Origin: Salinisphaera hydrothermalis C41B8
GTDB lineage: Bacteria; Pseudomonadota; Gammaproteobacteria; Nevskiales; Salinisphaeraceae
Assembly (NCBI RefSeq): GCF_000732535.1
Contig: NZ_APNK01000003.1
Span: 1-64,000, forward strand
DNA: 64,000 bases
Direction: 5' to 3'
Shown: positions 14,705 to 51,504 of the stretch, piece by piece
Layout: each line of letters starts with the position of its first letter
Position numbering within the stretch: the stretch's first letter is position 1
Made by a program: the position numbers and the translations under genes
Notes under the pieces: model-generated
What the model saw: the letters and a program-made list of their open reading frames with translations, nothing else
Told to the model about the DNA's origin: nothing
Databases searched by the model: none

Positions 14705-16417
14705 ATGAGTCAGAACGTCGCAGAAATCATGGTTGCCACCCTGCTCGACGCAGGTGCCAAGCGCTGTTACGGCGTCGTTGGCGACACCATCAATCACCTC
14801 ACGGACGCCATTCGGCGCTCGGATATGGACTGGGTCCATGTCCGCCACGAGGAAGTCGGCGGGTTCGCGGCCGGCGGCGAGGCCTACATGACGGGCGAGC
14901 TGGCCTGCTGTGCCGGCACCTGCGGGCCCGGCAGCACGCATTTCATCAACGGTCTGATGGAGTCGCATCGCAACGGCGCGCCGGTGGTGTTCATCGCTTC
15001 GCAGGTCGCGACCGCTGAAATGGGCGTCGGTTTTCCACAGGACGTCGACCAGCGCCCGCTGTACGCCCAGTACAGCGTGTTCTGTGAATACGTCTCCAGC
15101 CCCGAGAACGCCAAACGCCTGACCGCAATCGCCGCGCAGAAAGCGCTCAACGAAGGCGGACTGGCGGTGCTGATCGTGCCCGGTGATATCTTCACCGCCA
15201 AGCCGGAGAACAACCTGCCCTGGCGCACGATGCGCTTCGATCCGGTCGTGCGTCCGTCGGAGACCGAGCTGGAGGCCGTGGTCGAAGCCCTCGACGCCGG
15301 TAAGAAAGTATCGATCTATGCCGGTCACGGCTGTGCCGATGCGCACGATGAAGTCATCGCCCTGGCCGACAAGCTCGGCGCGCCGATCGCCTGGACCTCT
15401 CGCGCCAAGGATTTCATCGAATACGGTAACGAGTTGGAAGTGGGCATGACCGGCGTATTCGGCCTGGCCGGCGGTTATCGCGCGGTGTCGGAATGCGACA
15501 CGCTGCTGCTACTGGGCTGCAGCTTCGCCTGGGCCCAGTTCTATCCCGAGGACGCGACCATCATCCAGGTGGATATCGCGGCCGGGCAGATCGGCCTGCG
15601 CCATCCGGTGGATATCGGCGTAATCGGCTCGGTGCGCGATACCTGCGCGGCGCTGATCGACCGCGTGGCGCGCCACGACGACCGCGACTGGGTCAACGCG
15701 TGCCGCAAGACCTATCGGGAATCGCTCGACGACGCCGCGGCCGAATCCGAAGACGACAGCCTGATTCATCCGCAGGAACTCACCCTGGCGCTGGATGCGC
15801 ACGCCGCCGACGACGCCGTGTTCACCGCCGACGGCGGCAGCCCGATGGTGTGGTGCCTGCGTCACATCAAGGCTAACGGCCAGCGTCGTACGCTACCGAG
15901 TCTGGTCCACGGCACCATGGCCAACGCCTATCCACAAGCGATCGGCATCAGCCAGGCGTTTCCAGGCCGGCAAGTGATCGCCATGTGCGGCGACGGTGGT
16001 TTGTCGATGCTCATGGGCGACCTGTTGACGCTCGCCCAGTTCGAGATCCCGCTCAAGATCGTGATCTTCAACAACAGCTCGCTCGGCTTCGTCGAACTCG
16101 AGCAGAAAGTCGACGGCCTACTCGATGCCTACACCGAGCTGAAGAACCCGGACTTCGGCGCGCTCGCCCATGCGGTGGGCCTGTGGGGCCGCAAGGTCGA
16201 GGCCAAGCATGAGCTCGACGGCGCCGTCGCCGAACTGCTGGCCCACGACGGCCCGGGTATTCTGGATGTGAAGGTCAACCGTATGGAACTGGTCATGCCG
16301 CCCCACGTGGAATTCAGTCAGGTCGCCTCGACCGCGCTGTATTCGACCAAAGCTGTGTTGTCCGGCCGCATGGGCGAAGTCGTCGACCTGGTGCGCAACA
16401 ACTTCTGGACACGTTGA
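14705..16417 (+). CDS. poxB: Pyruvate dehydrogenase (quinone) / pyruvate oxidase
   Basis: A 570-residue ThDP- and FAD-dependent enzyme, matching E. coli PoxB in length (572). The N-terminal Pyr domain has the catalytic Glu in VRHEE (about residue 49), CAGTCGPGSTHFINGL, and GVGFPQDVDQRPLYA. The central FAD-type domain includes GMTGVFGLAGGYRAV, and the C-terminal PP domain has the GDGGLS...NNSSLG ThDP motif. The last ~25 residues form the region used for lipid activation in PoxB. It oxidises pyruvate to acetate and CO2, passing electrons to ubiquinone at the membrane. It is divergent from the hemerythrin-like gene, and its stop overlaps the start of the GNAT gene. Confidence 0.93.
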   Translation: MSQNVAEIMVATLLDAGAKRCYGVVGDTINHLTDAIRRSDMDWVHVRHEEVGGFAAGGEAYMTGELACCAGTCGPGSTHFINGLMESHRNGAPVVFIASQVATAEMGVGFPQDVDQRPLYAQYSVFCEYVSSPENAKRLTAIAAQKALNEGGLAVLIVPGDIFTAKPENNLPWRTMRFDPVVRPSETELEAVVEALDAGKKVSIYAGHGCADAHDEVIALADKLGAPIAWTSRAKDFIEYGNELEVGMTGVFGLAGGYRAVSECDTLLLLGCSFAWAQFYPEDATIIQVDIAAGQIGLRHPVDIGVIGSVRDTCAALIDRVARHDDRDWVNACRKTYRESLDDAAAESEDDSLIHPQELTLALDAHAADDAVFTADGGSPMVWCLRHIKANGQRRTLPSLVHGTMANAYPQAIGISQAFPGRQVIAMCGDGGLSMLMGDLLTLAQFEIPLKIVIFNNSSLGFVELEQKVDGLLDAYTELKNPDFGALAHAVGLWGRKVEAKHELDGAVAELLAHDGPGILDVKVNRMELVMPPHVEFSQVASTALYSTKAVLSGRMGEVVDLVRNNFWTR

Positions 16418-22437: not shown

Positions 22438-22513
22438 TGACACATAAGACTTTTTTCTAATATCAGGTAGCGCTCGAACGGCGCCAGATGCCTATACCGA
22501 ATTCTGGAAACGC

Positions 22514-22530
22514 GTTCTGGTATTTAGAAC
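22514..22530. promoter_or_regulatory. Operator-like palindrome 2 abutting the IclR start codon
   Basis: GTTC-N9-GAAC with the same spacing as the site at 22417, ending on the base before the ATG at 22531. Binding here would block transcription or translation of the IclR gene, as in autorepression. Confidence 0.55.
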
Positions 22531-23304
22531 ATGGACAAGACACTGCTCAAGGGCCTGCGTGTTCTCGAGACCCTGGCCGCCAGCCCGCAACCGATGGGCG
22601 TCACCACGCTCTCACGGGCGCTGGATCTGACCAAGAGCAACGCGCATCGCACGCTGCAAACCCTGGTCGCCGCCGGCTATGCCCGCAGCAATCCCGAGAC
22701 GGCCACCTACGAATGCACCCTCAAACTGTTTGAAGTCGCCAGCGCGGTCGTCAGCCGGCTGGACGTACGCCAGATCGCCGACCCGTATCTGCAGCAGCTC
22801 GCCCATGCGACCCACGAGAGCATCCATCTGTCGGTGCTGGACGGGCTGGATGTGATCTATCTCAACAAGATCGAAAGCCCGCAGCCGGTCCGCGCCTATT
22901 CCGCGATCGGCGGTCGTGCACCGGCGCACTGCGTGGCCTCCGGCAAAGCGCTGCTGGCCTGGCAGAGCGACGACATGCTAGCCACCCTGCCGGACGATTT
23001 GGCTCAGTGGACGCCACACACGCTCGACACTCTGGAAGCGCTGCTGGCCGACCTGGCCGAAACACGCCGTCGCGGTTTTTCGATCAACTGCGGCGAGTGG
23101 CGCGACTCGGTCGGCGGCGCGGCGGCGCCGGTGTTCGATGCCCACGGCCTGCCGGTCGCCGCACTCGGTATCTCAGGCCCGCTGGAACGGCTGTCGCTCG
23201 GCACCCTGCACCAGCACGGCCCGGTCGTGATCCGCACCGCGCGCGAACTGTCGCGGGCACTCGGCTATCGCGGCGATGCCTACCCCGACAGCGCGGCCGC
23301 CTGA
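22531..23304 (+). CDS. IclR-family transcriptional regulator
   Basis: 257 residues. The N-terminal winged helix is at about residues 5-65 (GLRVLETLAASPQPMGVTTLSRALDLTKSNAHRTLQTL), followed by the IclR effector domain (ESIHLSVLDGLDVIYLNKIES, GRAPAHCVASGKALLAW, GFSINCGEWRDSVGGAAAPVFD). It heads the CoA-thioester cluster and lies 32 bases before the CaiB gene, so it probably regulates that operon and itself through the GTTC-N9-GAAC palindromes. The effector is likely the acid degraded by the cluster and is unknown. No separate ribosome site is seen before the ATG because the palindrome occupies that place. Confidence 0.9.
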   Translation: MDKTLLKGLRVLETLAASPQPMGVTTLSRALDLTKSNAHRTLQTLVAAGYARSNPETATYECTLKLFEVASAVVSRLDVRQIADPYLQQLAHATHESIHLSVLDGLDVIYLNKIESPQPVRAYSAIGGRAPAHCVASGKALLAWQSDDMLATLPDDLAQWTPHTLDTLEALLADLAETRRRGFSINCGEWRDSVGGAAAPVFDAHGLPVAALGISGPLERLSLGTLHQHGPVVIRTARELSRALGYRGDAYPDSAAA

Positions 23305-23336
23305 GCCGCCTTCGCTTTATCTTTCGAGGAGACAAC

Positions 23337-24500
23337 GTGCAACCGTTACAAGGCATACGCGTCATCGAGTTCTGCAGCGTCGCCGCCGGGCCGTTCTGCG
23401 GCATGCTGCTGGCCGACATGGGCGCCGACGTGATCAAGGTCGAGAACCCGGCCGGCGGCGACAGCATGCGCGCCTGGCCGCCGATCAGCGACGGCTACAG
23501 CGAGAATTTCGCTTCGGTCAATCGCAACAAGCGCTCGGTGACCCTCGATCTCAAGAATCCGGCCGACCAGGCCCGCGCCCGTGTACTGGTCGATTCGGCC
23601 GATGTGGTGCTCGAAAACAACCGCCCCGGCGTAATGGAACGACTCGGACTGGCCTATGCCGCAGTCTCGAAGCAGCACCCGGAGCTGGTTTATTGCTCGA
23701 TCTCGGCCTTCGGCCAGGACGGACCGCGTGCCAGCGAGGCCGGTTTTGACCTGACGCTCCAGGCCATGAGCGGCGTGATGAGCGTGACCGGCGAACCCGG
23801 TGGCGAGCCGGTCAAATGCGGCGTGCCGCTGGCCGACTTTGCCACCGGCCTGTACGGCGCCTTCGCCATTTCGGCAGCGCTGCGCGAGGTGGCCGCCACC
23901 GGGCATGGCACGCATATCGATGCCTCGATGCTCGGTGCATCGCTGGCCATCAGTGCGCTCCAGACCAGCCAGTATTTCGGCACCGGCGAGAACCCGGTCA
24001 AGCTCGGCTCGGCCCATCCGCGCAACGCGCCATACGAAGCGTTTCGCGTGGCCGATGGGCACGTCGCCATGGCGGCCGGCAACAACGCGCTGTTCGCCCG
24101 CGCCTGCAAGGCGATCCATCGCGAGGACCTGATCGATGAAGCCCGGTTCGGCTCGACCACACGGCGCGCCGAGAACCAGGCCGAACTCAAGGCGATCTTC
24201 GAGGGTGTGTTCGCCGACAAGAGCGTCGACACCGTGCTTGCCCTATTCCGCGAGGCGGGCGTGGCCTGTGCGCCGATCAACGGCTATGCCGAAGCGCTGG
24301 CCGATCCGCAGGTCGATCACATGGGCTGGGTCCAGCCGCTGACCCTGCCCGGCGGGCACGAGACCCAAACCTTCATCTCGCCCCTGCGCTTCGGCGGCGA
24401 AAACGTCCGCCCCTATCGCCGCCCGCCCGAACTGGGCGAACACAACGACGAAGTGTTCGCCGAATTCGAAACCCGCCGGGAGGCCGCCGATGCCCGCTAA
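23337..24500 (+). CDS. CaiB/BaiF-type (class III) CoA-transferase
   Basis: A 387-residue class III CoA-transferase. The N-terminal motif LQGIRVIEFCSVAAGPFCGMLLADMGADVIKVE and the catalytic Asp in PLADFATGLYGA (about residue 167) are present. The frame is open 330 bases upstream, but the conserved sequence begins at the GTG at 23337, with GAGGAG before it. Members exchange CoA between succinyl-CoA or another acyl-CoA and a carboxylic acid. It overlaps the crotonase gene by 11 bases. In this operon it offers a second way, besides the acyl-CoA ligase, of loading CoA on the substrate. Confidence 0.9.
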   Translation: MQPLQGIRVIEFCSVAAGPFCGMLLADMGADVIKVENPAGGDSMRAWPPISDGYSENFASVNRNKRSVTLDLKNPADQARARVLVDSADVVLENNRPGVMERLGLAYAAVSKQHPELVYCSISAFGQDGPRASEAGFDLTLQAMSGVMSVTGEPGGEPVKCGVPLADFATGLYGAFAISAALREVAATGHGTHIDASMLGASLAISALQTSQYFGTGENPVKLGSAHPRNAPYEAFRVADGHVAMAAGNNALFARACKAIHREDLIDEARFGSTTRRAENQAELKAIFEGVFADKSVDTVLALFREAGVACAPINGYAEALADPQVDHMGWVQPLTLPGGHETQTFISPLRFGGENVRPYRRPPELGEHNDEVFAEFETRREAADAR

Positions 24501-25248
24501 AACCGTGCTCCCGATCCGCGTGACCCGCGTCGGCACGACCACGCAGGTCGTGCTGGCCCGGCCGGACAAGCGCAACGCCCTGTCGGCCGGGCTGGTCGAA
24601 GCGCTGATCGAAACCGTCGCCACCGCCGAGCGCGACGGCACCCGTTTGCTGACCCTGCGCGGCGAAGGCAAAAACTTCTCGGCCGGCTTCGATTTCTCCG
24701 GCTTCGAAAACGAAAGCGAAGGTGATCTGCTGCGGCGTTTCGTGCGCATCGAGCAACTGCTGCAGGCACTGGCCCATGCGAGTTTCGACACCGTCGCCTA
24801 TGCCCACGGGCGCAACTTCGGCGCCGGTGTGGATCTGCTCGCGGTCTGCAACCGGCGCTGGGCGAGCCCGGAGGCGAGCTTTCGCATGCCCGGGCTCGGC
24901 TTCGGGCTGGTGCTGGGCTCGCGGCGGTTCGCGGACATCGTCGGCGCCGACTGGGCCCGTGAAGTGCTACACGACGGTGTGACCTTCGATGCCGCCACCG
25001 CACGCGAACGCGGTTTCGTCACCGATCTCGTCGCCGCCGAAAATGTCGCGACGCGACTCAATGCCGTCGCGGCCCCCGATCTAAGCGCCGACGCGGCGGA
25101 CCGCCTGTTCCGGGTAGTCCGGCGCGACACGCGCGATGCCGACATGGCCGAGCTGGTGGCCTCGGCCGCCGAACCCGGTCTCAAGGACCGCATGCGCGCT
25201 TATCGCGAAGCTGCTGCGGCCCAGGCCCAACAGAAGAAGGCGTCGTAA
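24490..25248 (+). CDS. Enoyl-CoA hydratase/isomerase (crotonase)-family protein with altered active site
   Basis: A 252-residue crotonase-fold protein. The two oxyanion-hole regions are visible (NFSAGFD at about 62-68 and NFGAGVDL at about 109-116). The two hydratase glutamates are not: the first position is Asp (D115) and the second is Gly (G135, MPGLG instead of the usual PE). A plain enoyl-CoA hydration is therefore unlikely. Isomerase, decarboxylase or C-C hydrolase chemistry, as in diketone-hydrolysing crotonases, is more plausible. It ends on the base where the next gene begins, so the operon is tightly coupled. Confidence 0.82.
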   Translation: MPAKTVLPIRVTRVGTTTQVVLARPDKRNALSAGLVEALIETVATAERDGTRLLTLRGEGKNFSAGFDFSGFENESEGDLLRRFVRIEQLLQALAHASFDTVAYAHGRNFGAGVDLLAVCNRRWASPEASFRMPGLGFGLVLGSRRFADIVGADWAREVLHDGVTFDAATARERGFVTDLVAAENVATRLNAVAAPDLSADAADRLFRVVRRDTRDADMAELVASAAEPGLKDRMRAYREAAAAQAQQKKAS

Positions 25249-26081
25249 TGGGTATCGCACGTACCGCCAAGATCGAAAGCGTGGCCAAGCTGGCCGCCCG
25301 CATTCCCGACGGCGCCTCGCTCGCGCTGGGCGGCAGCTTTCTGCATCGCGGCCCGTTCGCGCTGGTGCGCGAACTGATCCGCCAGCAGCGCCGTGATCTG
25401 GAGATCATCAAGCAATCGCCGGGCTACGACATCGATATCCTCTGCCGGGCCGGTGCGGTCCGTCGGGCGCGAACCGGCATCGTCGCCATGGAAGGCAATT
25501 TCGGGCTTGCCCCCTGGTACCGCCGCGCGATCGAAAACGGCGACGTCGAACTCGAGGAACATGCCTGCGCCACGCTCACCGCCGGCCTCAGGGCCTCGGC
25601 GTTCGGTGTGCCGTTCATGCCCTGCGGCGGTATCCACGGCTCGGCGCTGGCCGAGCTGAACGGCTGGCAGAAACTGCCCGATCCCTACGGCAACGCAGGC
25701 GAGACCTATGTCATCCCGAAGATCCGCCCGGATTTCGCCATCGTGCTCGCCAACGAAGTCACCGAACAGGGCGACGCCCGCGTCTTCGGTACCTCGCACT
25801 GGGACCGCATCATGACCCGGGCCGCGGATCGCGTGCTGGTGGTGGCCGAACGGCAGGTCGCCACCGACACGTTTCGTGAGCGCCCGGAGCTCACGCTCGT
25901 GCCGCATTTCATGGTCGAGGCCGCCGCCGTGCTGCCGAACGCCGGCTGGCCGGGCTCCTGCTGGCCGGATTACGAAGTCGATTACCCGGCTGTCGAGGCC
26001 TATCTGGGCCGCGACGAGGCCGCCCTCGCCGATCACCTAGCCGCCGCCCCGGAAGCCCGCGAGGAGATCGCTCATGTCTGA
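25248..26081 (+). CDS. CoA-transferase-fold alpha subunit (GctA/IpdA-like)
   Basis: 277 residues of the class I CoA-transferase alpha fold: KLAARIPDGASLALGGSFLHRGPFALVREL near the start, IKQSPGYDIDIL, and VELEEHACATLTAGLRASAFGVPFMPCGG in the middle. It resembles the alpha subunits of the glutaconate/3-oxoadipate transferases and the IpdA subunit of the steroid ring-cleaving hydrolase. The start shares a base with the crotonase stop, and the end overlaps the beta subunit by 8 bases. Because its partner lacks the catalytic Glu, the pair may not transfer CoA at all. Confidence 0.82.
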   Translation: MGIARTAKIESVAKLAARIPDGASLALGGSFLHRGPFALVRELIRQQRRDLEIIKQSPGYDIDILCRAGAVRRARTGIVAMEGNFGLAPWYRRAIENGDVELEEHACATLTAGLRASAFGVPFMPCGGIHGSALAELNGWQKLPDPYGNAGETYVIPKIRPDFAIVLANEVTEQGDARVFGTSHWDRIMTRAADRVLVVAERQVATDTFRERPELTLVPHFMVEAAAVLPNAGWPGSCWPDYEVDYPAVEAYLGRDEAALADHLAAAPEAREEIAHV

Positions 26082-26820
26082 ATCCTGGTCGCCGTTTGCC
26101 TATATCGTCACCAATCTGGCGCGCTTCATACGGCCGCATGAAGTCACCTTCAGCGGCGTGAACTCCAGCCTGCCGATGCTGGCCTGCCTGCTGGCGCGCC
26201 GCGCCTACGATTTCGACTTCACCTATATCAATGTGGCGGGCGGGGTCGATCCCATACCGTCATCGGTGCCGATTTCCAGCTCCGACCCGGTGCTCGCCGA
26301 AGGCTCGACCGCGATCTTCGGCAACGAGGATTTCTACGATCTGTGCACCCGGGGCGGCATGGATCTGTGTTTTCTCGGCGCCGCCCAAGTCGACGGGCGT
26401 GGCCGGACCAATGTTTCGGCGATCGGCGACTGGCACCACCCGAAGGTGCGACTACCGGGCGGCGGCGGCGGCGCCGTTATGCTGCCCACGGCCAAAAGAT
26501 CGGTCACCTGGCGCACCGAACATTCACGCCGGACGATGGTGGAGACCCTGGATTTCGTCACGGCGGCCGGCGGCATGCACGGCGTGGTCACGCCGATCGC
26601 CGTATTCGTGAAGCAGAACGATCGGCTGGCACTGGCCTCCTGGCATCCCGAATCGTCGCTGGAAGAAGTCCGCGAGCGTACCGCCTTCGATTTCGAGGCC
26701 GGTCAGGCCCGGCCCACCGAATCGCCCACCCAACGCGAAATCGAGGCGCTGGCCGCACTCGACCCGGAACGCCGCTTCGAAACCGACGCCGCTATCGTGC
26801 TGCGCAAGGAGGCCGTATGA
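26074..26820 (+). CDS. CoA-transferase-fold beta subunit lacking the catalytic glutamate (IpdB-like)
   Basis: 248 residues of the class I CoA-transferase beta fold, with FLGAAQVDGRGRTNVSAIGDW and the KVRLPGGGGGA loop. In the pcaJ product of this window the catalytic Glu lies in IYESG (E52). Here the same place reads TYINVAGG, so the Glu is absent. Loss of this residue is a feature of IpdAB, which hydrolyses a cyclic diketone CoA ester, rather than of true transferases. It overlaps the alpha subunit and shares an ATGA with the ligase gene. The hydrolase role is inferred from one position plus context. Confidence 0.8.
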   Translation: MSESWSPFAYIVTNLARFIRPHEVTFSGVNSSLPMLACLLARRAYDFDFTYINVAGGVDPIPSSVPISSSDPVLAEGSTAIFGNEDFYDLCTRGGMDLCFLGAAQVDGRGRTNVSAIGDWHHPKVRLPGGGGGAVMLPTAKRSVTWRTEHSRRTMVETLDFVTAAGGMHGVVTPIAVFVKQNDRLALASWHPESSLEEVRERTAFDFEAGQARPTESPTQREIEALAALDPERRFETDAAIVLRKEAV

Positions 26821-28340
26821 GCCCGTCGCTGCAACCCTTGTCCGGCGTCCTGCGCGAGGCGATCGCAACCCATGCCGCGGCCGGGCGCACTGCGCTGCGT
26901 GGCCCGGCCGGCATGCTCGACTACGGCGCGCTCGGCGCGGCGATCGATGCCTATGCCGCCGGCTTTGCCGCGCTCGGCCTGGCACGCGGCGCCTTCGTCG
27001 GCATTGCTGCCGCCAAGACACACGACTGCGTGGCCGCCCTGTTCGGCGCCATGCAGGCCGGGCTTGCGCCGACCATCATGGAGCCCCGAATTACGGTCTC
27101 AGAGCTGGCCGATCGCGCCGAATCGGTCCGCATGGCCGTGATGGCTTTCGCGGACGAGGACTTTCGTGACGAAGCCGAACCCGGACTGATCACGGTCGGC
27201 ACGCGTGCCCTGCACCTGCCCTCGCTGAGGCACGAAACCGCGACGCCGACCGCCATCGAACATCAGACGACGGACCGCGCGCTGTTGTTGTTCACCTCGG
27301 GCAGCACCGGCCGGCCCAAGGGCGTGGTGCTGACCCAGGCCAATCTGCGGGTCAACGCCGATGGCGTCGTGGCGCACACCGGCCTCACGCCGCACGATCG
27401 GCTGCTGCACGTGATGCCGCTCCATCACACCAACGGCATCAACAATCAGCTGATCGCCCCGTTTCTGGCCGGCGCCGAAGTGGTGTTGATTCCGCGCTTT
27501 CGTGCCGACGACATTCTCGATCAGCTGCGCGAATACCGGCCGAGCATCGTGACCGGCGTGCCCACCATGTATTCCCGGGCCCTGCCCCATATCCCGGCGG
27601 GCGAGACTTTCGAGTACCTGCGATTTCTGCGCTGTGGCTCGGCGCCGATCACCCCGGCCCTGCACGAGCAGATCGAGCAGGTCTTCGGCGTGCCGCTGGT
27701 GGTCTCCTACGGGCTGTCGGAATCGACCTGTACGACCACGCTCAACCCGCCGTCCGCCCGTCGGATCGGCTCGATCGGCACCGTCATCCCCGGCCAGACG
27801 TTGAAGCTGTTCCTGCCGGAGACGAACACCGAGGCCGCGCCCGGCACCGAAGGCGAGATCCGTATCACAGGCGCGGCCCTCATGGCCGGTTATATCGGCG
27901 CCGACGTGGACTCGCCGATCGTCGGCGGCTGGCTACGCACCGGTGACCTCGGCCGGATCGACGACGACGGCTATGTGTCCATCACCGGCCGGCTCAAGGA
28001 CGTGATCATCCGCGGCGGGGAAAATCTCTCGCCGGCGCTGATCGAGAACCGGATCGCGGCCCATCCGGCCGTTGCCGAATGCTGCGTGATCGGCGCGCCC
28101 GACGCCGATCTCGGCGAGGTCCCCGTGGCGTTCGTGGTCACTCGCGATGATCAGGCCATCGATACCGAAGCACTCGCCGACCGGGTCGAGGCCGATCTAT
28201 CGCCCGTGTACCGCCCGCGAGCGGTTTATCGAGTCAACGCCCTGCCGCTGAACAAGGTCGGCAAGGTCGATCGCAAAACGCTGCGCCAGCGGCTGGCGCA
28301 CGAGCAAACAGCCCAGGCTGCCGGCTGGGCCGAATCATGA
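26817..28340 (+). CDS. AMP-forming acyl-CoA ligase
   Basis: A 507-residue ANL-superfamily enzyme. The P-loop TSGSTGRPKG is at about residues 160-169, A5 is YGLSESTCTT, the hinge follows TGDLGRIDDDGYVSITGRLKDVIIRGGENLSP, and the C-terminal catalytic Lys lies in LNKVGKVDRKTL. ATG 26817 overlaps the preceding stop (ATGA), although the frame is open earlier. The N-terminal domain is short, as in small-acid (oxalate, malonate, aryl) ligases. It would activate the imported acid of this cluster. The exact substrate is not readable. Confidence 0.88.
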   Translation: MSPSLQPLSGVLREAIATHAAAGRTALRGPAGMLDYGALGAAIDAYAAGFAALGLARGAFVGIAAAKTHDCVAALFGAMQAGLAPTIMEPRITVSELADRAESVRMAVMAFADEDFRDEAEPGLITVGTRALHLPSLRHETATPTAIEHQTTDRALLLFTSGSTGRPKGVVLTQANLRVNADGVVAHTGLTPHDRLLHVMPLHHTNGINNQLIAPFLAGAEVVLIPRFRADDILDQLREYRPSIVTGVPTMYSRALPHIPAGETFEYLRFLRCGSAPITPALHEQIEQVFGVPLVVSYGLSESTCTTTLNPPSARRIGSIGTVIPGQTLKLFLPETNTEAAPGTEGEIRITGAALMAGYIGADVDSPIVGGWLRTGDLGRIDDDGYVSITGRLKDVIIRGGENLSPALIENRIAAHPAVAECCVIGAPDADLGEVPVAFVVTRDDQAIDTEALADRVEADLSPVYRPRAVYRVNALPLNKVGKVDRKTLRQRLAHEQTAQAAGWAES

Positions 28341-28396
28341 TCGCCGTCTCTTTGCCAACCAGGAGCGCCCTGCCCGAACACTGATTTGCGGCCGAC

Positions 28397-28414
28397 CAGC
28401 GCCTATCGGCGCTG
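28397..28414 (+). terminator. Weak hairpin after the acyl-CoA ligase
   Basis: A 7-bp perfect stem CAGCGCC-TATC-GGCGCTG, 57 bases after the ligase stop, with no T tract. It may partly separate the CoA operon from the MFS gene. Confidence 0.35.
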
Positions 28415-28535
28415 CAGCGGTCGCTTTACGAGAGCCTGCCGCCCTTCGATTCGTATTGGCTGGTCCTGCACCGGTCCGGGGTCGGTATGCCCATAACAAG
28501 CGAAAAAACCGTACGAGATACGGAGGAGTACACCC

Positions 28536-29897
28536 ATGTCGAGCACAACCAAGGTATCGACCTCATCGAGGGCCAAGAACGCCGCCCGCGTTCTCACCGG
28601 CAATTTTCTCGAGATGTTCGATTTCATGATCTACGGCTTCTATGCCGGGATCATCGCGGATGTCCTGTTCCCTGCCACCGATCCGGCGTTCGCGCTGCTG
28701 ATGTCCTGGATCACCTTCGGTATCGGCTTTCTGATGCGCCCCCTCGGCGCCCTGGTGCTGGGTGCCTATGCCGACAAGCACGGCCGGCGCGCCGGGCTGC
28801 TGCTGAGCCTTTCGATCATGTCGGTGGGCGTGCTGTCGATCGCCTTCGTGCCGTCGTTCGCCAGCATTGGCTACGCGGCCCCTGTCATCGTGATCATCGG
28901 CCGTCTGCTACAGGGCTTTTCGGCCGGCGCCGAATCGGGCACGGCCTCGGTGTATCTGGCCGAGATCGCGCCGAACAATCACAAGGGCTTTTTCGCCGCG
29001 CTGCAGCCGACCAGCCAGGAAGTTTCGGTGCTGTTGGCCTCGCTGATCGGCGTCGGCCTGTCGCTGACCCTGTCGGACGCCCAGATGCACAGCTGGGGCT
29101 GGCGCGTGCCGTTTCTGATCGGTTCGCTGCTGGTGCCGGTGCTGCTGATCATGCGGCGCTCGATGACCGAGAGCGAGGAGTTCAAACAGCGCCGTCATCA
29201 CCCGAGCCTACGCGAAGTCAGCGCCACGCTGGCCAAGAACTGGCAGCTGATCGGCAACGCCATCATGATGATTCTGCTGACCTCGGTGACCTTTTATCTG
29301 ATCACGTCCTACATCGTCACCTACGGCCACAAGATCCTCGGCCTGACGTCGATGGAAAGCTTCATCGTCACCATCTGCATGGCCACGGCCAATCTTTTCG
29401 TCATGCCCGGCGTGGCCGCGATCTCGGACCGGGTCGGTCGGCTACCGGTGCTGTTGTCGGCCTCGGCGGCGCTCGGCGTCTGTGCCTATCCGACCATGGC
29501 TTGGCTGGTGGCCGATCCGTCGTTCTTCCGGCTGTGGGTCGCGGTGGTCTTCCTCGGCTGCCTGTACGGCTGCTGGCAGGGCACGCTGATGATCTCGCTG
29601 GTGGAAATCATGCCGGCCAAGGTCCGCGCCAGCGGCTGGTCGCTGGCCTACAGCCTGACCTATGCCATCTTCGGCGGCTTCACCCCCGCCTTCGTCACCT
29701 GGCTGATCCAGGTTACCGGCAATCGCGCGATGCCGGGTGTCGCCCTAGCGCTGGCGGCGATCGTCGGCTTCATCGGCACGCTGCTGGCCCGCAAGCGTCT
29801 GGCGGCAGGCCGTCAGCAATGGCTATCGATCGAAACCACCGACAGCCAGCCGGAAGACACCGCCGCCACCGCACCGTCCCAGCGAGGATTCGCCTAG
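28536..29897 (+). CDS. MFS transporter, metabolite:H+ symporter type
   Basis: A 453-residue, 12-helix carrier of the MHS/sugar-transporter branch (citrate, tricarballylate, ketoglutarate importers). The GNFLEMFDFMIYGFYAGII opening, the loop GAYADKHGRRAGLLLS, GRLLQGFSAGAESGTASVYLAEIAP after helix 4, and the second-half RVGRLPVLL are present. GGAGG lies 10 bases before the ATG. It is followed with no gap by the ThDP enzyme (stop at 29895-29897, next ATG at 29898). As the only importer of this cluster it probably takes up the organic acid handled by the upstream CoA genes. Confidence 0.88.
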   Translation: MSSTTKVSTSSRAKNAARVLTGNFLEMFDFMIYGFYAGIIADVLFPATDPAFALLMSWITFGIGFLMRPLGALVLGAYADKHGRRAGLLLSLSIMSVGVLSIAFVPSFASIGYAAPVIVIIGRLLQGFSAGAESGTASVYLAEIAPNNHKGFFAALQPTSQEVSVLLASLIGVGLSLTLSDAQMHSWGWRVPFLIGSLLVPVLLIMRRSMTESEEFKQRRHHPSLREVSATLAKNWQLIGNAIMMILLTSVTFYLITSYIVTYGHKILGLTSMESFIVTICMATANLFVMPGVAAISDRVGRLPVLLSASAALGVCAYPTMAWLVADPSFFRLWVAVVFLGCLYGCWQGTLMISLVEIMPAKVRASGWSLAYSLTYAIFGGFTPAFVTWLIQVTGNRAMPGVALALAAIVGFIGTLLARKRLAAGRQQWLSIETTDSQPEDTAATAPSQRGFA

Positions 29898-31583
29898 ATG
29901 CACGCACCCAACCCGGCAGCCCCGACCGTTCCTGCCCCCGGCAGGGCGGTCGAGGGCACCACCGCCGACATTCTGGTCGAGACGCTGCATCGGCGCGGCG
30001 TCGATACGATCTTCGCCCTGCCCGGCATCCAGAACGATCCATTGTTCGATGCGCTGTATCACGCCGCCGATCGGGTGCGTACGATCAACCCGCGCCACGA
30101 ACAGGCCACGGCCTATATGGCGACCGGTTATGGCATGGCCACCGGCCGGCCGGGCGTCTGCGCGGTCGTCCCCGGGCCGGGCCTGCTGAATACCACCGGC
30201 GCACTGGCCACCGCCTGGGCGTGCTCGGCCCCGGTCATCGCGCTGGCGGGCCAGATTCCGCAACGCATGATCGGGCGCGGCGTGGGCATGCTGCATGAAA
30301 TCCACGATCAGCTCGGCGTACTGCGTCATGTTACGAAATCCGCCGAGCGCATCGCCCACCCGGGCCAGGCCGGCACGCTCACGGCGCGCGCATTCGATAT
30401 CGCAAACACCGCGCCCTGCCGGCCGGTGGGGCTGGAATGCGCGCTCGATGTCTGGGGCCGTACCGGCCGGGCTACCATCCCGGACAGCGAACCGGGCCGC
30501 GCAGCGGCCGATCTGGCCGATCTGGCCGGACTGGAACAGGCGGCCAAACTGCTGGCCCGTGCCGAACGCCCGTTGATCGTGGTTGGCGGCGGCGCCCAGG
30601 GCGCGGCGGAACCGTTCCGGCGACTGGCCGCCGCACTGGGGGCGCCGGTCACGGCCAACCGCATGGGCCGCGGCGTGCTCGCCAGCGACGATCCGCTGTG
30701 CGTCGATCCGGTGGCCGGGCATAGGCTCTGGGGCGAAGCCGACGTGGTGCTCGCAATCGGCACCCGGCTGCAGCTCCAGCTGATGGACTGGGGTCTCGAC
30801 GAACGCCTCAAGATCATTCGCATCGAGGCCGATCCCGAAGCGCTCGATCGCTTGAGCCCGCCGACTGTCAGGCTGGTGGGCAATGCGGCCGAGGTCGTGG
30901 CCGATCTGCTCGATCAACTGCCGCCTGGCATGGCGCCGAGGGCGCTCGGCGACTGGATCGAACCGGCCCGACGTGCCGCGGCCCAGGCGCTGTCGGCGCT
31001 CGAACCGCAGATCGGCTGGCTTGATGCCATTCGCGACGTGCTGCCGCGGAACGGCATCTTTGTCGACGAACTCACCCAGCTTGGCTATGCCAGCCGGGCC
31101 GTATTCCCGGTCTATGAACCGCGCAGTTTTCTATCGCCGGGCTATCAGGGCACGCTCGGTTGGGGCTTTCCCAGTGCACTCGGCGCCCAGGTCGCCTGCC
31201 CGGACCGCAAGGTGCTCTCGATCAACGGCGACGGCGGGTTTCTCTACAACATCGCCGAACTGGCCACCGCGGCCCAGCACCGGATTCCGCTAGTAGCGAT
31301 CGTGGTCAACGACCGCGCCTATGGCAACGTGGCCCGTATCCAGGACCAGAAATTCGGCGGCCGCCGCATCGCCAGCGCCCTGAATTCGCCGGACTTCGTC
31401 GGCGTGGCCGAAAACTTCGGCGTCCGCGGTATGCACGCGAATACGCCGGATGCATTGCGAGCCTGCCTCGAAGAAGCCTTTGCGCTCGACGCCCCGGTGC
31501 TCATCGAAGTCGAGGCCGGGCCCATGCCGGACCCCTGGGCGCTGCTGCGCTTTTCGCCCTCGCGCGGGCGCAAGGTGAGCTGA
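29898..31583 (+). CDS. Thiamine-diphosphate-dependent enzyme (acetolactate synthase / 2-hydroxyacyl-CoA lyase superfamily)
   Basis: 561 residues with the three ThDP-enzyme domains: Pyr domain with the activating Glu in PRHEQATAYMATGYG, a central domain (RAERPLIVVGGGAQGAAEPF), and the PP domain with GDGGFLYN...NDRAYGN as the ThDP/Mg motif. It lacks recognisable features that would fix it as acetolactate synthase, oxalyl-CoA decarboxylase or 2-hydroxyacyl-CoA lyase. With a CaiB transferase and a short acyl-CoA ligase upstream, an acyl-CoA decarboxylase or lyase is possible, but a 2-keto acid decarboxylase is equally so. It directly abuts the MFS gene and closes the cluster. Confidence 0.8.
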   Translation: MHAPNPAAPTVPAPGRAVEGTTADILVETLHRRGVDTIFALPGIQNDPLFDALYHAADRVRTINPRHEQATAYMATGYGMATGRPGVCAVVPGPGLLNTTGALATAWACSAPVIALAGQIPQRMIGRGVGMLHEIHDQLGVLRHVTKSAERIAHPGQAGTLTARAFDIANTAPCRPVGLECALDVWGRTGRATIPDSEPGRAAADLADLAGLEQAAKLLARAERPLIVVGGGAQGAAEPFRRLAAALGAPVTANRMGRGVLASDDPLCVDPVAGHRLWGEADVVLAIGTRLQLQLMDWGLDERLKIIRIEADPEALDRLSPPTVRLVGNAAEVVADLLDQLPPGMAPRALGDWIEPARRAAAQALSALEPQIGWLDAIRDVLPRNGIFVDELTQLGYASRAVFPVYEPRSFLSPGYQGTLGWGFPSALGAQVACPDRKVLSINGDGGFLYNIAELATAAQHRIPLVAIVVNDRAYGNVARIQDQKFGGRRIASALNSPDFVGVAENFGVRGMHANTPDALRACLEEAFALDAPVLIEVEAGPMPDPWALLRFSPSRGRKVS

Positions 31584-31591
31584 GGGTGGGG

Positions 31592-32005
31592 TCAGCCGCC
31601 GGGCACACCGCCCGGCGGCTCGTCGTAGGGATAGCACGGCGTCGCCGCGTCGAGCTGATAATAATCGCCGGCCTCCGCACAGTAGATATGACCGATGGTG
31701 GCCTGCCCGGTGAGCGCGTCGAAAGCGCCCGGCGCGATCTCGATATGATCGGCGCCGGCTTCGTCGAAACAGAGACTCGCCCCACAAACCCGGCAGAAAC
31801 GCCGCATGACACCCGGCGACGACGACCAGCCGGCGAGCGTGGCCAAGGCCGTCCATTCGAATCGTTCGCGCGGGATTTCCATTGCAGCCCAGTAATAACC
31901 GGACCAGCGGCGACAGCTCTCACAGTGGCAGGCGATCACCGGCGCCAGCGCGCCGTGAACGACAAACCGCACACCGCCGCAGGCACAACCGCCGGTATGC
32001 GTCAC
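31592..32005 (-). CDS. GFA/CENP-V family zinc protein (copy 1)
   Basis: 137 residues with the full cysteine set of the glutathione-dependent formaldehyde-activating family: GGCACGGVRF, CHCESCRR and FCRVCGASL. The fold binds structural and probably catalytic zinc. The family function is not established beyond binding of small thiol adducts. It overlaps its paralogue by 4 bases (ATGA). Confidence 0.88.
   Translation of the reverse strand: MTHTGGCACGGVRFVVHGALAPVIACHCESCRRWSGYYWAAMEIPRERFEWTALATLAGWSSSPGVMRRFCRVCGASLCFDEAGADHIEIAPGAFDALTGQATIGHIYCAEAGDYYQLDAATPCYPYDEPPGGVPGG
31594..31620. terminator. Convergent terminator hairpin inside the 3' end of the GFA gene
   Basis: A perfect 11-bp stem (AGCCGCCGGGC / GCCCGGCGGCT) with loop ACACC, 10 bases after the ThDP gene stop. 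It lies within the last codons of the opposing GFA gene, where it encodes the PPGGVPGG tail, so the coding end doubles as a bidirectional terminator. Confidence 0.6.
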
Positions 32006-32409
32006 GAGTCCATCTCCGGACCGAGCTTCTGTGGGAGCGATGGATCGAGATCATAGTAGTCGCCGGCCTCAGCGACGCAGATATGCGCCGCGGTCGCCAG
32101 CCCCGTCGGCGATTCAAGCGCACCGGGCGCGATCGAGATGCGATCCACGTCGTGGCGACGATAGAACAGACTCGAGCCGCACTGAGAACAAAAGCCACGC
32201 TCGGCGAGATCCGAAGACGCCCACCATGTCAGCGTTTCGCCCGCCTCGATCGAAAGCGCTTCCCGCGAGACGTGAGTCGCGCCCCAGAAATAACCGGACC
32301 AGCGCCGGCAGGTCTGGCAGTGGCAGGCAACGACATCGGTCAGATCGGCATGGACCCGGAAGCGCACCGCGCCACAAGCACAGCGTCCGCGATGTTCATG
32401 CGCACGCAT
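32002..32409 (-). CDS. GFA/CENP-V family zinc protein (copy 2)
   Basis: 135 residues, a clear paralogue of the next gene with the same cysteine pattern (GRCACGAVRF, CHCQTCRR, FCSQCGSSL) and a shared body (RWSGYxW, IAPGALESPTG, EAGDYYDLD). The two form a tandem duplication in one operon with the LysE gene, which ends 4 bases downstream of this start. One may have been kept for a different substrate. Confidence 0.88.
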   Translation of the reverse strand: MRAHEHRGRCACGAVRFRVHADLTDVVACHCQTCRRWSGYFWGATHVSREALSIEAGETLTWWASSDLAERGFCSQCGSSLFYRRHDVDRISIAPGALESPTGLATAAHICVAEAGDYYDLDPSLPQKLGPEMDS

Positions 32410-49903: not shown

Positions 49904-50734
49904 ATGGCCGAATTCCTGTCCCTGGCGGAGGCCGTGGACCGATATGTGGCCGACGGCGCCACCGTGGCGCTGGAAGGCTTTACCCATCTGATTCCTTTTG
50001 CCGCCGGCCACGAAATCATCCGTCAGAAAAAACGTGATCTCACGCTGATCCGCATGACCCCGGACCTGATCTACGATCAGATGATCGGCGCCGGTTGCGC
50101 GAAAAAGCTGATCTTTTCCTGGGGCGGCAATCCCGGTGTGGGTTCGTTGCATCGACTGCGCGATGCCGTGGAAAAAGGCTGGCCGCATCAGATCGAGATT
50201 CTCGAACACAGCCATGCCGCCATGGCCAACGCCTTCGAGGCGGGCGCGGCCGGGCTACCGCTGGCGATCCTGCGCGGCTACATCGGCTCGGATCTGCCCA
50301 AGGTCAACGACCAGATCAAGTTCATCGACTGCCCGTTCACTGGCGAAAAACTGGCCGCAGTGCCGTCGATCCGGCCGGATGTCTCGATCGTGCACGCGCA
50401 GAAAGCCGACAAGCACGGCAACGTGCTGGTCGAAGGCATTATCGGCGTCCAGAAGGAAGCCGTGCTGGCGGCAAAACATTCGATCGTGACGGTCGAGGAG
50501 ATCGTCGACGAGCTGGATTGCGGCCCCAACGCCTGCGTGATCCCGGCCTGGGTGATCACCGCCGTCGCCAAGGCCCCGGGCGGCGCCAAGCCGTCCTATA
50601 CCCACGGCTACTACCCACGGTCCAACAAGTTCTACAAGGACTGGGACCCGATCTCTCGCGATCGCGACGCCTTCAATGCGTGGCTCGACGAACACGTGTT
50701 CAACACCACCGCCGACAACGGAGCCTCGGCATGA
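49904..50734 (+). CDS. pcaI: 3-oxoadipate CoA-transferase, alpha subunit
   Basis: 276 residues: AEFLSLAEAVDRYVADGATVALEGFTHLIPFAAGHEIIRQKKRDLTLIRMTPDLIYDQMIGAG is the conserved PcaI opening, and HGYYPRSNKFYKDWD near the end is also typical. It partners with PcaJ to transfer CoA from succinyl-CoA to 3-oxoadipate. AGGAG precedes the ATG, and the inverted repeat above lies just upstream. It shares an ATGA with pcaJ. Confidence 0.94.
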   Translation: MAEFLSLAEAVDRYVADGATVALEGFTHLIPFAAGHEIIRQKKRDLTLIRMTPDLIYDQMIGAGCAKKLIFSWGGNPGVGSLHRLRDAVEKGWPHQIEILEHSHAAMANAFEAGAAGLPLAILRGYIGSDLPKVNDQIKFIDCPFTGEKLAAVPSIRPDVSIVHAQKADKHGNVLVEGIIGVQKEAVLAAKHSIVTVEEIVDELDCGPNACVIPAWVITAVAKAPGGAKPSYTHGYYPRSNKFYKDWDPISRDRDAFNAWLDEHVFNTTADNGASA

Positions 50735-51504
50735 GCGAACGCTACAGTGCTTCCGAAATGATGACGGTCACCGCCTCGCGGGCGCTCACCAACGGTCAGA
50801 GCTGTTTCGTGGGCATCGGGTTACCGAGCGAGGCCGCCAACCTGGCGCGCCTGACCCATGCCCCCGACGTGGTGCTGATCTATGAATCCGGCACGCTGGA
50901 GACCAAGCCGGACGTGCTGCCACTGTCGATCGGCGACGGCGAGCTGTGCGAGACCGCGCTGACCACGGTGTCGGTGCCCGAGATGTTCCGCTACTGGGTT
51001 CAGGGCGGCAAGATCGACGTCGGTTTTCTGGGCGCGGCGCAGATCGATAAATACGCCAACCTCAACACCACGCTGATCGGCGATTACACCGATCCGAAGG
51101 TTCGCCTGCCGGGCGGCGGCGGGGCCCCGGAAATGGCCACGGCTACCGGCGAGATCTTCATCACTCTCAAGCAGTCCAAGCGAACTTTCGTGGAAGCGGT
51201 GGATTTCGTCACCACGGTCGGCTTTGGCCGCGACGGCACCGCCCGCGACGGCGTACCCAACATCGGCAAAGGTCCGACCCGGGTGATCACCGACCTGTGC
51301 GTGATGCAGCCTGACCCGACCACCAAGGAACTGACGGTCACCTCGCTGCACCCGGGCGTGACCCGCGCCGACGTGATCGAAGCCACCGGTTGGGACATCG
51401 CCTTCGCCGACGACGTCAGCGAAACCGCCGAGCCGGACGACCAAGAACTGACGGTTCTACGCGAACTGAAAACACGCACCGAGAAACATCACGCCGAATC
51501 GTAG
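50731..51504 (+). CDS. pcaJ: 3-oxoadipate CoA-transferase, beta subunit
   Basis: 257 residues starting at ATG 50731 within the pcaI stop; the same frame is open further up. The catalytic Glu is in LIYESGTLETKP (E52), with the FLGAAQIDKYANLNTTLIGDY and KVRLPGGGGAPE motifs. It completes the CoA-transferase. A true terminator follows 30 bases after the stop and separates it from pcaF. Confidence 0.94.
   Translation: MSERYSASEMMTVTASRALTNGQSCFVGIGLPSEAANLARLTHAPDVVLIYESGTLETKPDVLPLSIGDGELCETALTTVSVPEMFRYWVQGGKIDVGFLGAAQIDKYANLNTTLIGDYTDPKVRLPGGGGAPEMATATGEIFITLKQSKRTFVEAVDFVTTVGFGRDGTARDGVPNIGKGPTRVITDLCVMQPDPTTKELTVTSLHPGVTRADVIEATGWDIAFADDVSETAEPDDQELTVLRELKTRTEKHHAES

Follow-up and report, generated by a model that had tools for sequence, protein, structure and literature searches.

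Two systems with the class I coenzyme A (CoA) transferase fold are known to catalyze reactions other than CoA transfer. AibA/AibB of Myxococcus xanthus, the 3-methylglutaconyl-CoA decarboxylase of isovaleryl-CoA biosynthesis, decarboxylates its substrate directly via an acyl-CoA enolate, the proton coming from Cys56 or, without Cys56, from Glu72 (PMC7756340); AibB variants with Ala, Ser, Asn, or Val at position 56 are still active (Bock 2017, as cited in PMC7756340). For IpdA/IpdB, the COCHEA-CoA hydrolase of steroid catabolism, the available portion of the published description reports hydrolytic ring opening, no detected CoA transfer, and Gly57 at the catalytic position of IpdB from RHA1 (PMC5380842). 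Both have lost the beta subunit glutamate that glutaconate CoA-transferase and PcaIJ, which share the fold and the CoA binding motifs, retain. Here we describe a pair of this fold encoded in Salinisphaera hydrothermalis C41B8 (RefSeq assembly GCF_000732535.1), on positions 1 to 64,000 of contig NZ_APNK01000003.1; this 64,000-nucleotide stretch is referred to as the window. The alpha (25248 to 26081) and beta (26074 to 26820) genes follow genes for a CaiB/BaiF family III CoA-transferase (23337 to 24500) and a crotonase (24490 to 25248) and precede a gene for an AMP-forming acyl-CoA ligase (26817 to 28340). Judged from its residues, the pair most likely does not transfer CoA but cleaves a C-C bond to yield an acyl-CoA enolate, possibly by decarboxylation.

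In the beta subunit, the sequence TYINVAGG spans residues 50 to 57, and Val54 aligns both with the Glu of the PcaJ encoded in the window and with Cys56 of AibB, as expected from the initial annotation, which had placed this sequence at the PcaJ active-site Glu. Conservation was assessed in 83 loci, namely, the best 80 (those closest to the window) of 147 relatives retrieved in a single genome scan that used a three-row alignment of beta, together with a Caballeronia plasmid locus, a locus from a genome of the window's genus, and the window itself; Achromobacter is over-represented in this set. The conservation profiles exclude rows that contain an internal stop, show low identity, or cover too little of the protein, which leaves 63 to 83 rows for four proteins; key residues, apart from the CaiB Asp, were then recounted in all loci with a match (above 55% identity for CaiB and above 42% for the ligase). 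Position 54 is Val in 83/83 loci, inside an invariant N53-V54-A55-G56-G57, and the catalytic Glu of active class I CoA-transferases is thus absent from every beta subunit. Also invariant in all 83 are E103, E104, H105, A106, C107, W185, and D186 of alpha and E85, D86, W146, R147, E149, and H150 of beta. Because these other positions are likewise invariant, Val54 and the crotonase replacements described below represent fixed traits and not decay. The pair most likely is not a transferase, since it has the class I fold without the beta glutamate.

By sequence score, the beta subunit is nearest to AibB (107 bits), followed by GctB (79 bits) and IpdB (29 bits), and the alpha subunit is nearest to AibA (93 bits), followed by IpdA (82 bits). 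The beta subunit was modeled from a 54-row alignment that included IpdB rows and no AibB rows (predicted local distance difference test score [pLDDT], 89.5); a model built on only 13 rows was of low quality (pLDDT, 53) and was discarded. The model has the AibB fold, matching the AibB C56V variant with a Z score of 29.1 (root mean square deviation, 2.3; 237 residues aligned) and the other AibB entries with Z scores of 28.4 to 29.0, the wild type (28.5) being tied with C56V. Scores for GctB (25.2), IpdB (24.5 to 25.2), and CtfB (19.9) were lower, and families missing from this match list are not excluded by it. The C56V variant carries Val, the natural residue of the window beta family. The two systems differ in that their identity is only about 30%, Cys56 and Glu72 of AibB are replaced by Val54 and Ser70, and AibA/AibB do not belong to a CaiB-crotonase-ligase operon.

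In the alpha, beta, and joined trees, the pairs examined here form one clade (support of 100/99, 100/99, and 100/100, respectively). IpdAB from four actinomycete loci cluster apart from them (100/100 in the joined tree), and three of these four loci have the order echA20-ipdA-ipdB-ipdC (IpdC was assigned by eye). Several branches in the pair trees are long, and their deep order is tentative. The nearest outside row is a plasmid pair of Acetoanaerobium noterae with Ile at position 54 (94/91 in the joined tree, not starred; locus L005, 7133 to 8711; beta identity of about 40%). Its neighbors include genes for a FucA-like aldolase, an acylating aldehyde dehydrogenase, and a CoA-disulfide reductase and, by eye, PduL-like, sugar ATP-binding cassette transporter, methylthioribose kinase, and MtnA-like genes. 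Related pairs also occur on Mycolicibacterium and Nocardioides plasmids with alkene monooxygenase or phosphosulfolactate synthase genes (L089, L090, and L091), where they adjoin flavin adenine dinucleotide (FAD) oxidoreductase, short-chain dehydrogenase/reductase, or CoA-ligase genes. These ethene-type plasmid pairs were considered as kin and set aside; they carry no weight because they have a Glu at or beside the catalytic position.

The crotonase has Asp115 and Gly135 where the 3-hydroxypropionyl-CoA dehydratase 5zai has its two hydratase glutamates (in GGGLE and LPE), and it does so in 76/76 loci with a match, which bears out the initial annotation on this point as well. It therefore lacks the two catalytic glutamates of an enoyl-CoA hydratase. 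Its best structure match is 3isa (232 bits), which we take to be from Bordetella and which shows the same Asp/Gly pattern; the PDB lists it just as a putative enoyl-CoA hydratase/isomerase. With one acid left at its active site, the crotonase is more likely an isomerase, a decarboxylase, or a C-X lyase than a hydratase. An EchA20-like function was ruled out by the residue pattern: the EchA20 genes linked to ipdAB (L100 to L102) encode Gly at the first position and Glu at the second, the reverse of the window arrangement.

In 70 of the 83 loci, from Proteobacteria to Actinomycetes, the CaiB, crotonase, alpha, and ligase genes are all found no more than 6.5 kb from beta and on its strand, and this retention is not attributable to chance. 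Six loci (four Vicinamibacterales, Massilia, and Tamaricihabitans) have only alpha, beta, and the ligase in that range; the Massilia locus has its crotonase and CaiB genes on the opposite strand, and in Acidobacteria the pair is accompanied by the ligase alone. The ligase is absent from the range in three loci and both ligase and crotonase in two, and alpha and beta stand alone in two loci, on pieces that end soon after beta. In Tamaricihabitans (L077, 4467 to 14772), class II aldolase and aldehyde dehydrogenase genes lie directly 5' of alpha-beta-ligase with an FGGY kinase gene nearby, and no crotonase or CaiB gene adjoins the three. The module was found in 3/398 Pseudomonadota genomes, the window's included, and in 1/384 actinomycete genomes (the seed itself), and the beta gene in 34/151 Alcaligenaceae genomes, including two divergent cases (62% identity in G878; 43%, with Ile at position 54, in G884); one Alcaligenaceae genome (G986) has two copies. 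Screening by crotonase gave 2 positives among 61 genomes near the window, one being the window's own. This patchy occurrence suggests horizontal spread. The residue replacements, the clustering, and a nearby importer together indicate, at the level of sequence, that the operon is a real, conserved catabolic module. The coupling of pair and crotonase to an acid importer, a CaiB transferase, and a ligase, noted at the outset for the window, thus holds widely. The titles and abstracts searched in the open-licence literature contain no description of the module, nor was an assigned function for it found there, in keeping with the initial view of the pathway as undescribed.

We propose that this IclR-linked module degrades an imported carboxylic acid and that the pair carries out an AibAB-like, non-transferase C-C cleavage, a proposal that we judge to have an even chance of being right. 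The imported acid is probably dicarboxylic, tricarboxylic, or substituted. The AMP-forming ligase would prime the pathway with CoA, and the CaiB transferase would then move CoA from the product or from succinyl-CoA onto fresh substrate. The pair would place the acyl-CoA where the Glu would otherwise sit, cleave a C-C bond, and release an acyl-CoA enolate; as a best guess, a gamma-carboxylate would be decarboxylated in the manner of AibA/AibB, and failing that the reaction would be a retro-Claisen cleavage. From the chemistry of AibAB and IpdAB, the Val54 pair is expected to perform enolate chemistry and not to form a Glu-CoA ester. The crotonase, with Asp at the first position and no acid at the second, may perform a companion isomerization or cleavage, and the core set would work without a redox enzyme. 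Itaconate degradation (CoA transferase, hydratase, and citramalyl-CoA lyase) likewise combines CoA activation, a modifying step, and redox-free C-C cleavage, according to the available part of PMC12290011, but employs other protein families. Aconityl-CoA (3-carboxyglutaconyl-CoA), which corresponds to the AibAB substrate as its tricarboxylic analogue, is a concrete but weak candidate; the open-licence literature found does not mention it. The broader claim, to which we give slightly less than even credence, is that the pair represents a third non-transferase activity of this fold, in addition to those of IpdAB and AibAB: an acyl-CoA-enolate lyase or decarboxylase of the Val54 type that, in Proteobacteria and Actinomycetes, acts together with a novel Asp/Gly crotonase in a CoA cycle free of redox steps, for substituted di- or tricarboxylates, including sulfur or hydroxy acids.

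The other genes of the operon were compared across the same loci. The CaiB protein contains PF02515 (429 bits) together with the conserved Asp of VPLADF, present in at least 97% of 71 rows and presumably the catalytic residue; by both features of family III CoA-transferases it is probably active. Its nearest structures are 4ed9 and SUGCT (9br7), and its top models are succinate-glutarate and mesaconate CoA-transferases, each scoring under its cut-off. The ligase (PF00501; best structure match, malonyl-CoA synthetase 4fuq) keeps three motif residues in 76/76 loci scored. Downstream, at 28536 to 29897 on the plus strand, is a gene for a major facilitator superfamily (MFS) carboxylate importer of the TcuC (tricarballylate/proton symporter) subfamily (NF011656, 548.7 bits; cut-off, 445). 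An importer homologue lies near 72 of the 83 loci (MFS alone in 27, a TctC-type receptor alone in 41, both in 2, and a tripartite ATP-independent periplasmic transporter in 2), TcuC-like MFS homologues occurring in 29; no importer was seen in the other 11, several of which are short stretches. These importer types suit di- and tricarboxylates.

Further hints about the substrate come from linked genes, which vary from lineage to lineage and were counted by genus-level groups, unnamed metagenome-assembled genomes among them. A homologue of 3-mercaptopropionate dioxygenase (nearest structures, 3uss/4tlf; E value, 9e-70) lies near 33 of the 83 loci in 9 groups, a PF13454 FAD-NAD(P) protein in 26 loci in 12 groups, and a TauD-family dioxygenase, nearest to FrbJ, in 8 loci in 8 groups. 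A LarA homologue, scoring under its family cut-offs, is accompanied by LarB, LarC, and LarE in three loci from three genera (L014, L016, and L038), and an enolase-superfamily sugar-acid dehydratase homologue occurs in three loci. In L014 and L016, the Lar genes adjoin the crotonase gene and a different AMP-forming ligase gene. The literature on LarA, in the part available of PMC11770544, did not settle the substrate of this homologue. Outside the set, in the divergent locus L108 (beta identity, 62%), the second gene upstream of alpha-beta-ligase encodes a lyase that scores best with the model of RipC/Ccl, the itaconate C-C lyase (232 bits; cut-off, 375), and in the divergent locus L107, genes for a class I fumarase and an SdhA-like protein lie 6 to 9 kb away; these neighbors hint at C5 or C6 di- and tricarboxylates. 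Taken together, the neighbors hint at hydroxy, tricarboxylic, or sulfur acids, and no single acid accounts for all the linked genes. Pantoate, methylthio acids, and aconitate were considered as substrates, and none is well supported. Thiodipropionate was also considered; the available portions of the reports on the Variovorax TBEA6 cluster (PMC6370202) and on Advenella DPN7 (PMC5373536) name other enzymes and no similar pair.

Several observations count against an AibAB-like cleavage of an imported di- or tricarboxylate. Ser70 occupies the AibB Glu72 position in 83/83 loci, so the AibAB mechanism cannot apply unchanged, and the proton must have another source. The structural comparison covers the beta subunit alone, and the ranking of AibB is not specific, because AibB is also the best match of a Nocardioides relative with a Glu beside position 54. 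The approximately unbiased (AU) test rejects neither a joint clade of the pair with AibA/B (P = 0.142) nor one with IpdAB (P = 0.079). As to the substrate, TctC receptors are common in Burkholderiales, and some of the 72 importers may therefore be chance neighbors. The Ccl-like lyase of L108 was not found in the 83 loci, where class I fumarase and SdhA-like genes were not found either, and the window genome gave no match to it in a search made without a positive control. Finally, aconityl-CoA does not account for the links to the thiol dioxygenase, LarA, and TauD.

The initial annotation had tentatively read the pair and crotonase as IpdAB and EchA20 types that together hydrolyze a cyclic or linear beta-diketone CoA ester in an alicyclic or 1,3-diketone acid pathway. 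The loss of the transferase Glu is indeed shared with IpdAB (according to the part of PMC5380842 available), IpdA ranks second among the structure families matched by the alpha subunit, and the phylogeny, although it gives the pair a clade of its own apart from IpdAB, does not reject a sister relation by the AU test. But the EchA20 pattern is reversed, IpdB has Gly and not Val, and IpdB falls about 4 Z units behind AibB in the model comparison. No IpdC-type gene was found among the window operon genes, whose order is not echA20-ipdA-ipdB-ipdC. Nothing was seen that points to a ring or a diketone; the alicyclic reading is weakened because the eight window operon genes include no acyl-CoA or hydroxyacyl-CoA dehydrogenase or thiolase needed to reach a beta-diketone, although the substrate may be imported already as a diketone. 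The EchA20/IpdAB analogy is thus weak, failing for the crotonase and not being favored for the pair, and we regard such a diketone hydrolysis as distinctly improbable. We also consider it improbable that the pair is still a CoA-transferase acting through another carboxylate (e.g., alpha Glu104 or beta Glu85) or by a direct ternary mechanism. In favor of this reading, the fold is retained, with strong conservation of its glycine-rich and its charged motifs. However, Val holds the nucleophile position throughout, the operon already has a CaiB transferase and a ligase, and alpha Glu104 aligns with a Glu found in both IpdA and AibA, described as hydrolase and decarboxylase, respectively (PMC5380842 and PMC7756340).

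An alternative that we deem unlikely, but that draws on the linked genes, is that the module acts on sulfur-containing or hydroxylated carboxylates, with the crotonase or the pair breaking the CoA ester at a C-S or C-O bond and the linked dioxygenase oxidizing the thiol where one is freed. In its favor are the recurrence of the dioxygenase near the module and the LarA homologue with its three partners, and the Acetoanaerobium pair, the nearest outside relative, sits among genes that by eye resemble methylthioribose salvage; a CoA-dependent breakdown of thiodipropionate has been proposed for Variovorax (PMC6370202, available portion). Among Alcaligenaceae, the dioxygenase is present in 30/34 genomes with the beta gene versus 48/117 without it (Fisher P = 6e-7, in a test that ignores shared ancestry and genome size), and coordinates place the two genes within 12 kb of each other in 15 of the 30 genomes holding both but not close in the other 15. 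A genome search was made for 18 loci, 12 of them picked for having the dioxygenase in the locus, and 17 genomes were searched (L038 was left out). Eight of the 12 genomes so selected hold one copy in all, and the dioxygenase was not found in the 5 genomes whose locus shows none. The window genome likewise has no match to 3-mercaptopropionate dioxygenase, so sulfur is not obligatory and the dioxygenase is not essential to the module.

Genes of this kind are easily labeled enoyl-CoA hydratase and CoA-transferase, and those labels are probably wrong because the catalytic-residue replacements are invariant in the loci examined (for the pair in three phyla, for the crotonase in two). A defined module, a crotonase homologue of solved structure (3isa), and a linked importer make substrate and chemistry directly testable, and the answer would show how often the CoA-transferase fold has turned from CoA transfer to bond cleavage.

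The cluster at 23337 to 28340 was delimited correctly by the initial annotation: the CaiB gene begins at 23337 with GTG, the ligase gene ends at 28340, and the genes are contiguous on the plus strand, overlapping or abutting from CaiB to ligase. The operon is probably larger, comprising eight plus-strand genes (22531 to 31583). Upstream is a gene for an IclR-type regulator (22531 to 23304; PF01614 and PF09339), with relatives in most of the 83 loci. Downstream, after 195 bases, is the TcuC-like MFS gene, and one base past its stop begins a gene for a thiamine diphosphate (ThDP)-dependent enzyme (29898 to 31583; NF006122 [PRK08266], 643 bits; cut-off, 571), a possible operon member with homologues in only 3 of the 83 loci. 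Apparent gene fusions proved to be an artefact of stop codons within alignments, and none was present in four gene pairs tested. Directly 5' of the regulator gene, at 22471 to 22530 on the plus strand, is a putative IclR operator, GAAACG..GTTC....TATTTAGAAC. By eye, a similar sequence precedes iclR in L009, L020, L015, L083, L088, L043, and L038, Streptomyces and Prauserella included, and was not seen in three Burkholderiales stretches compared (L048, L024, and L018). Two copies of T[AG]GAAC within 60 bp occur in 6/52 loci, where shuffled sequences predict 0.04; the window carries a single copy.

Elsewhere in the window, a second ThDP enzyme is encoded at 14705 to 16417 (25% identity to that at 29898 to 31583). 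Tandem small proteins with CHCxxCRRW-like motifs, GFA-like by eye, are encoded on the minus strand at 31592 to 32005 and 32002 to 32409. Two more CoA-transferase pairs are present in the same 64 kb, at 49904 to 51504 and, on the minus strand, at 1409 to 2757; by eye, one is PcaIJ-type, with the YESG Glu, in a protocatechuate-like cluster, and the other is ScoAB-type.

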